The notes below the pieces were generated by a model. The model worked only from the letters and a program-made list of their open reading frames with translations. It ran no database searches and had not been told where the DNA came from. Below are positions 48,987 through 54,295 of a stretch of 64,000 nt of DNA, in pieces. How positions within the stretch are numbered: position 1 is the stretch's first letter; every line of letters begins with the position of its first letter. The position numbers were made by a program, and so were the translations under genes. The DNA is from Dehalobacterium formicoaceticum (GTDB taxonomy: Bacteria > Bacillota > Dehalobacteriia > Dehalobacteriales > Dehalobacteriaceae): assembly GCF_002224645.1 (NCBI RefSeq), contig NZ_CP022121.1, positions 1,618,501-1,682,500 of the forward strand. The letters are read 5' to 3'.

Positions 48987-49700
48987 GTGCCTGAGGAATT
49001 TGCAGGATGCAGTAGAGCCAAATTAATTAAAAAGGCGACTGAGGAAAAAAACACGACTGATTGTATTTCAGTAAAGGAGAAGACAGCCATGGTGACAGTG
49101 GGAAAACCGGCTCCCGATTTTACAGCAGCGGGATTTCATGAAGGAAAATTCAAGAAGTTTACCTTATCCGAGAATCTGGGTAAATGGGTATTATTATGTT
49201 TTTACCCTGGTGATTTTACTTTTGTCTGAGCGACGGAGGTTTCAGCAGTTGCTGAAAAATATCAGGATTTTCAGGATTTAGGGGTTGAAGTATTTTCATG
49301 CAGCGTGGACAGCACCTTTGTACATAAAATATGGAATGATTTTGAGTTATCAAAGATGATCGGTAAAGATATCCCATATCCCATGCTTTCCGATCCGGAT
49401 GGAAGCATCGCAAAAACGTATGGTATTTATGATGAAGAAGGCGGGACAGCAACAAGAGGCCGATTTATTATTGATCCTGACGGAAATATTCAGGCTTTTG
49501 AAGTGCTGACACCTCCGGTAGGCAGGAATGTCAGTGAAGCCTTGAGACAAATAAAAGCATACCAGCTGGTACGAGCTACCAAAGGGGCTGAAGTGACTCC
49601 TTCCGGTTGGAAACCGGGCAAACAAACGTTGAAACCCGGTATCGATTTAGTAGGAAATGTATGGAAGACATGGAAAGTAAGCCAGGCTTTTGAAGACTAA
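48987..49700 (+). CDS. Selenocysteine-containing AhpC-type peroxiredoxin
   Basis: 237 residues if the in-frame TGA at 49227-49229 is read as selenocysteine. Around it the protein reads GDFTFV-U-ATEVS, where AhpC proteins have DFTFVCPTE, so Sec replaces the peroxidatic Cys. Homology continues in frame to the end (SVDSTFVHKIW, SKMIGKDIPYPMLSDP, LKPGIDLVGNV). A SECIS-type hairpin follows: stem TTTCAGC/GCTGAAA with loop AGTT at 49240-49257, its loop G about 19 bases after the TGA. The C-terminal resolving Cys of AhpC (EVCP) is EVTP here, suggesting a one-Sec mechanism. GTG start with GAAGGAGGGAG upstream; the first 35 residues are an unusual extension. Confidence 0.92.
49240..49257 (+). promoter_or_regulatory. 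SECIS-like hairpin of the peroxiredoxin gene
   Basis: Seven-base perfect stem TTTCAGC/GCTGAAA with loop AGTT, starting 11 bases after the TGA. Fits the bacterial SECIS rule of a G near the start of a small apical loop 16-37 bases from the UGA. Confidence 0.75.
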
Positions 49701-53592: not shown

Positions 53593-53844
53593 ATGATGGT
53601 CAAGGTATATGCATTAACAACCTGTCCCTGGTGCAAAAAAGTGAAAGCTTTGCTAAAAGAAGAAGGCATTCCCTACGAAGTGCTGGATGTGGATATTATG
53701 ACAGGACAAGAACAGGAAGATGCTTTGGCAGAGGTGGAAAAATTAACAGGGAAAAGGGCTTTTCCTGTAACGGTGATTAATGATTTGGTGATACAGGGGT
53801 ATAAACCGGAAGAGCTTAAAGAGGCAATCCAAAATGAAAGATAA
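53593..53844 (+). CDS. Glutaredoxin-like (NrdH-type) redox protein
   Basis: 83 residues with a thioredoxin fold and active site TTCPWCKKVK (CPWC) near residue 12, and the cis-Pro AFPVTVIND. Small thiol-disulfide carrier. It overlaps by 11 bases the next gene, a ferredoxin-thioredoxin-reductase-like protein, so the two are almost certainly a reductase-substrate pair. ATG ATG start behind AAAGGAG. Confidence 0.9.
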   Translation: MMVKVYALTTCPWCKKVKALLKEEGIPYEVLDVDIMTGQEQEDALAEVEKLTGKRAFPVTVINDLVIQGYKPEELKEAIQNER

Positions 53845-54229
53845 ATTATTTTGCCCCGTCTGTGAGGTTAGCTTTATCCTCAAAAATCCGCTCAAAAAAG
53901 GCGATACGGTAGTGTGCCCCGTGTGCGGTGCAAAACTGGTAGTTGATGGGGAAGAGCCTCTTAGCGCATCGCGTTTTCCCCAACCGCCCTTGAATGAGAT
54001 TGTAGAGCGCATAGACAATTATGCCCAATTAAAAGGTTATATTTTTAAGGAAAACAAGCAAGAGATTATCGACGGCTTATTAGCAAAGAATGAACGTTAC
54101 GGGGATTTTTTCTGCCCTTGCCGCTTTGATAATATCCAGGAGAATGTCTGCCCCTGTAAGGAAACGAGGCAGGGCTATGTCAACAGAGAGGGCAGTTGTT
54201 TGTGAGGCCTTTTTTATAAAGCGGAATAG
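53834..54229 (+). CDS. Ferredoxin-thioredoxin reductase catalytic subunit, candidate selenoprotein
   Basis: Residues 1-40 form a zinc-ribbon-like domain (FCPVC...VCPVCG). Residues 50-131 match the FTR catalytic subunit, with CPCRF and CPCK supplying most of the [4Fe-4S] and active-site Cys. The frame then reads EGSCL, a TGA at 54203-54205, and GLFYKAE before a TAG at 54227. Relatives end in GxCxCGLxV, so the TGA sits exactly at the last active-site Cys and the conserved GLF follows it. A SECIS-like hairpin at 54220-54240 supports read-through as selenocysteine (131 aa); otherwise the protein ends at 123 aa without that Cys. No FTR alpha subunit is encoded nearby. Confidence 0.75.
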
Positions 54230-54240
54230 GTGATTTCGCT
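54220..54240 (+). promoter_or_regulatory. SECIS-like hairpin after the FTR-like UGA
   Basis: Eight-base stem AGCGGAAT/ATTTCGCT (one G-T pair) with loop AGGTG; the first loop G is about 24 bases after the TGA. Geometry matches bacterial SECIS elements. It overlaps the TAG stop, which is allowed for UGA codons near a gene's end. Confidence 0.55.
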
Positions 54241-54267: not shown

Positions 54268-54295
54268 ACGGGGGGAGATGATCCTCCCGTTTTTC
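54268..54295 (+). terminator. Terminator after the FTR-like gene
   Basis: Nine-base stem ACGGGGGGA/TCCTCCCGT (one G-T pair), loop GATGA, then five T. Confidence 0.85.

Follow-up and report, generated by a model that had tools for sequence, protein, structure and literature searches.

A predicted selenocysteine form of a ferredoxin-dependent disulfide reductase with a LysW-like zinc ribbon in Dehalobacterium formicoaceticum and its relatives

Does the gene for a ferredoxin-thioredoxin reductase (FTR)-like protein of D. formicoaceticum end at its first stop codon, or is that codon read as selenocysteine (Sec)? In the 64,000-nt stretch of DNA analysed here (the window), the reading frame opens with ATG at 53834 and runs into TGA at 54203-54205. 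The initial annotation had noticed that the codons beyond this apparent end continue the C-terminus of the family, and this holds: with TGA taken as Sec, the frame proceeds through GLFYKAE to TAG at 54227-54229 (Table 1). We propose, with a probability of roughly 0.93, that the gene encodes the Sec form of a stand-alone ferredoxin-dependent disulfide reductase of the FTR/FDR fold that bears an N-terminal LysW-like zinc ribbon.

The reading frame and the predicted protein

The 131-aa protein matches the FTR catalytic domain PF02943 at 5.1e-10 (39.8 bits against a curated cut-off of 22) and the zinc-ribbon family PF21344 at 1.9e-7, and it is the sole PF02943 match in the D. formicoaceticum genome. 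For the N-terminal part PF21344 alone matches, since the LysW amino-group carrier equivalog TIGR01206 gave 20.5 bits against a cut-off of 53.2. An AlphaFold2 model of the protein reached a pLDDT of 93.9 and was matched by the solved chains 7pwe, 4tpu, 2pu9 and 1dj7, each with a probability of 1.00, the first two being the best; its N-terminus was matched by Foldseek to LysW (3wwn_B). Based on the sequence and this confident model, the protein is predicted to adopt the FTR fold.

The cysteines follow the pattern CPC-x9-CPC-x13-CxU, with a spacing unlike that of plant-type FTR. In alignments with solved FTR chains, residue 124 falls on the second cysteine of CHC, in agreement with the earlier placement of the TGA on the last, redox-active Cys of the CxC motif. 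By homology, C94, C106, C108 and C122 are the presumed ligands of a [4Fe-4S] cluster and C96 is probably redox-active. We take position 124 to be the cluster-proximal member of the FTR redox pair, and C96 to be the equivalent of its exposed nucleophile. If UGA were instead a true stop, the product would be a 123-residue truncated FTR and the codons beyond it leftovers. Standard ORF calling does stop at this UGA, and the shorter product would keep all four presumed cluster ligands but just one member of the redox-active pair.

Table 1. Features of the locus, in positions of the window
Feature	Position	Strand	Remarks
Glutaredoxin-like protein, predicted redox partner	53593..53844	+	83 aa, CPWC; PF00462 2.1e-15; 3' end overlaps FTR gene by 11 nt
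LysW-like zinc ribbon + ferredoxin-thioredoxin/disulfide reductase, predicted selenoprotein	53834..54229	+	131 aa including Sec124, stop TAG 54227-54229; PF02943, PF21344
N-terminal LysW-like zinc-ribbon domain	53852..53980	+	Residues 7-49, CPVC...CPVC; PF21344, Foldseek match to LysW 3wwn_B
C94-P-C96 ... C106-P-C108	54113..54157	+	Invariant columns; aligned with solved FTR chains
UGA codon for predicted Sec124, last position of C122-L-U124	54203..54205	+	UGA in 38 orthologues, Cys in 5
Candidate bacterial SECIS hairpin	54220..54240	+	8-bp stem, loop AGGUG, holds TAG stop; six pairs kept in 38/38, compensatory changes
Likely intrinsic terminator	54268..54294	+	ACGGGGGGAGATGATCCTCCCGT then T-run; read from sequence

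Codon 124 and the downstream hairpin among orthologues

Orthologues were sought in the window's own family and class, in four other classes of the phylum and in a phylum-wide sample for PF02943. Codon 124 was read in 43 LysW-FTR fusion genes, four further listed genes with one TGA being left out of the count. It was TGA in 38 (the window included) and TGT or TGC in five, with UAA, UAG or any third state seen in none. UGA together with the same RNA hairpin was thus present in 37 genomes besides that of D. formicoaceticum. The UGA-form genes span nine family-level groups, and one family (f91) holds one Sec and one Cys form; within the family of D. formicoaceticum, G002 is the sole other genome found with a LysW-FTR gene. 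Class-level searches around G273 and G408 returned no orthologues besides those two, a scan of genome contigs with a single protein query gave two distant archaeal FTR loci and nothing else, and the one match in a scan of viral contigs was spurious. In 41 aligned sequences, the five cysteines C94, C96, C106, C108 and C122 do not vary, and residue 124 is either Sec or Cys; since C96 is Cys in every one of them, the UGA forms would carry a single Sec. PF02943 matches all 41 members at E <= 0.001, and PF21344 is present in 37 of them.

The truncation reading fares poorly against these alignments, as the codon in question is UGA in 38 genes and Cys in five, never UAA or UAG. Codons +1 to +5 after the UGA keep the residues [GN]-L-F-[YH]-L while using many synonymous codons, and heterozygosity after the UGA is 0.36, 0.21 and 0.56 at the first, second and third codon positions, the third being the most variable, compared with 0.73 past the hairpin. 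This bias, kept along [GN]LF[YH], indicates at the sequence level that the codons 3' of the UGA stay under protein-level constraint. Close relatives with a true stop and nothing conserved after it, which the initial annotation had named as evidence that would count against Sec, were not found; the relatives carry either UGA with conserved codons or Cys. Adding the covarying hairpin 3' of the UGA described below, we regard a truncated FTR as very improbable, and the suggested Sec form of an FTR catalytic subunit is supported by 38 UGA and five Cys orthologues and by the candidate SECIS.

In a tree of 38 Sec rows and four Cys rows, the Cys rows stand apart on long branches and four changes are needed. 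This suggests that Sec is the older state and was repeatedly lost to Cys, a direction of change that stays a suggestion given weak support for the deep forks, an arbitrary root and uneven sampling.

By consensus, a bacterial SECIS is a hairpin that closely follows the UGA and has a G near the start of its apical loop. An eight-base hairpin with loop AGGTG had been reported 15 bases after the TGA, and it was recovered here with arms AGCGGAAU (54220-54227) and AUUUCGCU (54233-54240) around the loop at 54228-54232. Its geometry recurs in the 38 UGA-bearing orthologues, all of which have the loop 22-24 nt after the UGA and a G within the first two loop bases. The six pairs counted out from the loop are formed in 38/38, with 3-6 pair types per position. 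Pairing among 17 distinct arm sets was 100%, a percentage inflated by the choice of the best stem for each sequence, against a mean of 68% (sd 4.5%, maximum 88% in 5000) for an arm-swapped null in which 3' arms were exchanged between sequences and relatedness was left uncorrected. When the position was left free, the same hairpin ranked best in 36 of the 38 genes, each with p <= 0.037 against shuffles preserving base composition and not dinucleotides; in loci L054 and L086 another hairpin outscored the SECIS candidate. Folding of the single D. formicoaceticum sequence was unremarkable (z = -1.3), and the case for the hairpin therefore rests on the comparison among orthologues. An Rfam scan of the whole window gave no matches, so the hairpin draws no support from any Rfam family. 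Judged by position and early loop G, the element has the make-up of a bacterial SECIS. Three of the five Cys-form genes are without a notable hairpin, and the other two (L081 and L089) have a strong downstream hairpin, in L081 with a loop that has no early G, which may represent a terminator or the remnant of a SECIS.

The means to insert Sec are present in D. formicoaceticum, as had been expected of a host that reads UGA in this way. Its genome, a single contig of 3,766,545 bp, contains adjacent selA and selB genes, a tRNA-Sec gene (selC) with anticodon TCA, and a selD gene (L021) with an in-frame UGA of its own (AAGUAAKIGPG), the Sec form of selenophosphate synthetase. SelB scored above the cut-off in 28 of 29 genomes tested, and its absence above the cut-off in G452, a genome with the UGA form, is probably a gap in the draft. 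SelB presence does not separate Sec and Cys forms, because Cys-form genomes also have SelB.

The UGA-coded peroxiredoxin mentioned in the initial annotation is real. This gene, at 49089-49700 on the forward strand, belongs to a known type of selenoprotein; its in-frame UGA (FTFVUATE) occupies 49227-49229 and precedes the hairpin UUUCAGC-AGUU-GCUGAAA.

If an ordinary tRNA decoded the UGA, inserting Trp or Cys for instance, the frame would likewise stay open and the protein layout would be the same; we consider this hardly credible, less so even than truncation, as Sec is favoured by the geometry of the SECIS candidate, by the presence of sel genes and by a second gene of the window with an in-frame UGA, that of the peroxiredoxin.

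A stop codon within the hairpin

Under the proposed Sec reading, SelB would recognise the hairpin, which begins 15 nt downstream of the UGA at 54203-54205, and deliver Sec to residue 124, and translation would then end at the TAG inside the same hairpin. Since the D. formicoaceticum hairpin spans the true stop, its 3' arm is non-coding. The arrangement is common, with the true stop at codon +8 and inside the hairpin in 35 of the 38 UGA-form genes (UGA in 23, UAA in seven and UAG in five). Within the stem, the second base of the stop codon is paired with the 3' arm, typically as G-C for UGA (UGA-GUU-UCA) and as A-U for UAA, so that a change of stop codon goes with a change of stem.

In the 23 loci that end in UGA (for example L051, L052, L054, L059 and L086), a Sec-UGA would be followed eight codons (24 nt) later by a stop-UGA. 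As this second UGA must terminate translation, UGA is not generally read through in these genomes. General readthrough, sequencing error and truncation were rejected as explanations on the same codon in 38 genomes, the covarying RNA and the second, terminating UGA in 23.

A SECIS element must unwind to enter the mRNA tunnel of the ribosome (PMC4513850), from which we infer that the hairpin would be gone by the time the second UGA is decoded. One element may then give two meanings to UGA, being intact at the first and melted by the ribosome at the second. The clade in which a predicted Sec-UGA and a stop-UGA lie eight codons apart in one hairpin offers a natural setting for testing how UGA is divided between SelB and release factor.

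The predicted redox path and its relation to known systems

C94, C106, C108 and C122 are predicted to hold the [4Fe-4S] cluster, and C96 with Sec124 to form an active-site selenenylsulfide. Electrons may pass from reduced ferredoxin through the cluster to C96/Sec124, and from there to the CPWC glutaredoxin encoded just upstream, a path proposed from the overlap with the glutaredoxin gene and from the best fold match to the glutaredoxin (Grx)/FDR fusion 7pwe. Almost every locus has a CPWC glutaredoxin gene whose 3' end either reaches 11 nt into the FTR gene or falls a few bases from its start, the exceptions being a contig edge, loci with broken frames and two Cys-form loci. We think it probable that C96/Sec124 reduces this glutaredoxin, which would pass electrons on to downstream enzymes. 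The D. formicoaceticum genome contains NrdD, and to name this class III ribonucleotide reductase as the end user is a guess.

It is also conceivable, and in our judgement unlikely, that the Sec reading is right and the protein reduces another partner or serves as a thiol-based sensor, the zinc ribbon then being used for docking. No biochemistry was found for the LysW-FTR subfamily, a LysW-like domain occurs in none of the matched solved FTR chains, and the cysteine spacing departs from that of plant FTR, all of which would suit such a role; the conserved 11-nt overlap with the CPWC glutaredoxin gene and the natural Grx/FDR fusion as nearest fold match argue against it and for the glutaredoxin as partner.

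In one locus (L066 of G480), the upstream glutaredoxin has UPWC in place of CPWC. Its gene contains an in-frame UGA (oriented position 1290) that precedes a short hairpin with loop AGUU, and both members of the pair therefore appear to be selenoproteins there. Like the (seleno)proteins of the Uxx-star/YruB type (NF041212, TIGR02196), the upstream partner is small and glutaredoxin-like; the D. formicoaceticum glutaredoxin is a Cys form that falls below the cut-offs of both models.

The best sequence and fold matches come from Methanosarcina acetivorans (the ferredoxin disulfide reductase 4tpu) and Desulfotalea psychrophila (the Grx/FDR fusion 7pwe), both with an FTR-type catalytic domain. In these two the last position is Cys and the additional domain is rubredoxin-like or a glutaredoxin, whereas the D. 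formicoaceticum protein has predicted Sec and a LysW-like zinc ribbon; the link to glutaredoxin, a fusion in 7pwe, takes the form of overlapping genes in D. formicoaceticum. The plant and cyanobacterial FTR catalytic subunit (1dj7, 2pu9) shares the CPC...CPC...CxC pattern and the fold of the C-terminal half, and differs in Cys spacing, in having Cys87 where Sec is predicted here, and in the N-terminal zinc ribbon of our protein.

The initial annotation did not regard this as a standard selenoprotein, which stands for the fusion and not for Sec-FTR as such. Zhang and Gladyshev 2008 (PMC2398784) describe two marine metagenome sequences of Sec-FTR, one with Sec at both redox positions, and reviews of 2022 and 2026 list Sec-FTR as CxU, the latter as NF041072 (FtrB family double-selenoprotein). 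Those proteins likewise have an FTR domain with Sec for redox Cys, the CxU position included. NF041072 (FtrB_double_U) is defined by Sec at both redox positions, whereas the D. formicoaceticum protein would have one, at CxU; one of the two sequences of 2008 may be single-Sec too. Unlike NF041072, the D. formicoaceticum protein has a fused LysW-like zinc ribbon and an upstream glutaredoxin gene, and comes from a different group of organisms. It scored 24.4 bits against the NF041072 equivalog cut-off of 160, and seven members scanned with this model gave weak matches (best E 8.8e-6). A single-Sec LysW-FTR fusion is absent from the 2026 selenoprotein list, and no paper linking LysW and FTR was found in literature lying mostly outside subscription journals. 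Given the score below the cut-off, the one predicted Sec and the lack of a LysW-FTR paper in that literature, we regard the single-Sec LysW-FTR fusion subfamily as an unlisted variant of the known Sec-FTR.

Taken together, it is reasonably likely that relatives of Dehalobacterium widely share a mostly Sec-containing FDR family paired with a glutaredoxin of its own, that its Cys forms are later replacements, and that one hairpin, which recodes a UGA and contains the real stop (UGA in 23 genomes), could give one codon two meanings. With the UGA eight codons before the end of the gene, annotation easily overlooks the family, and many genomes probably carry its members annotated as truncated FTR. 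The residue replaced is, by homology, the active-site Cys beside the iron-sulfur cluster, which would put a selenolate at the point where two single-electron steps are combined into the two-electron reduction of a disulfide. As natural Sec and Cys members exist in one family, this selenolate chemistry is directly testable, and the short gene is open to study together with its glutaredoxin partner.
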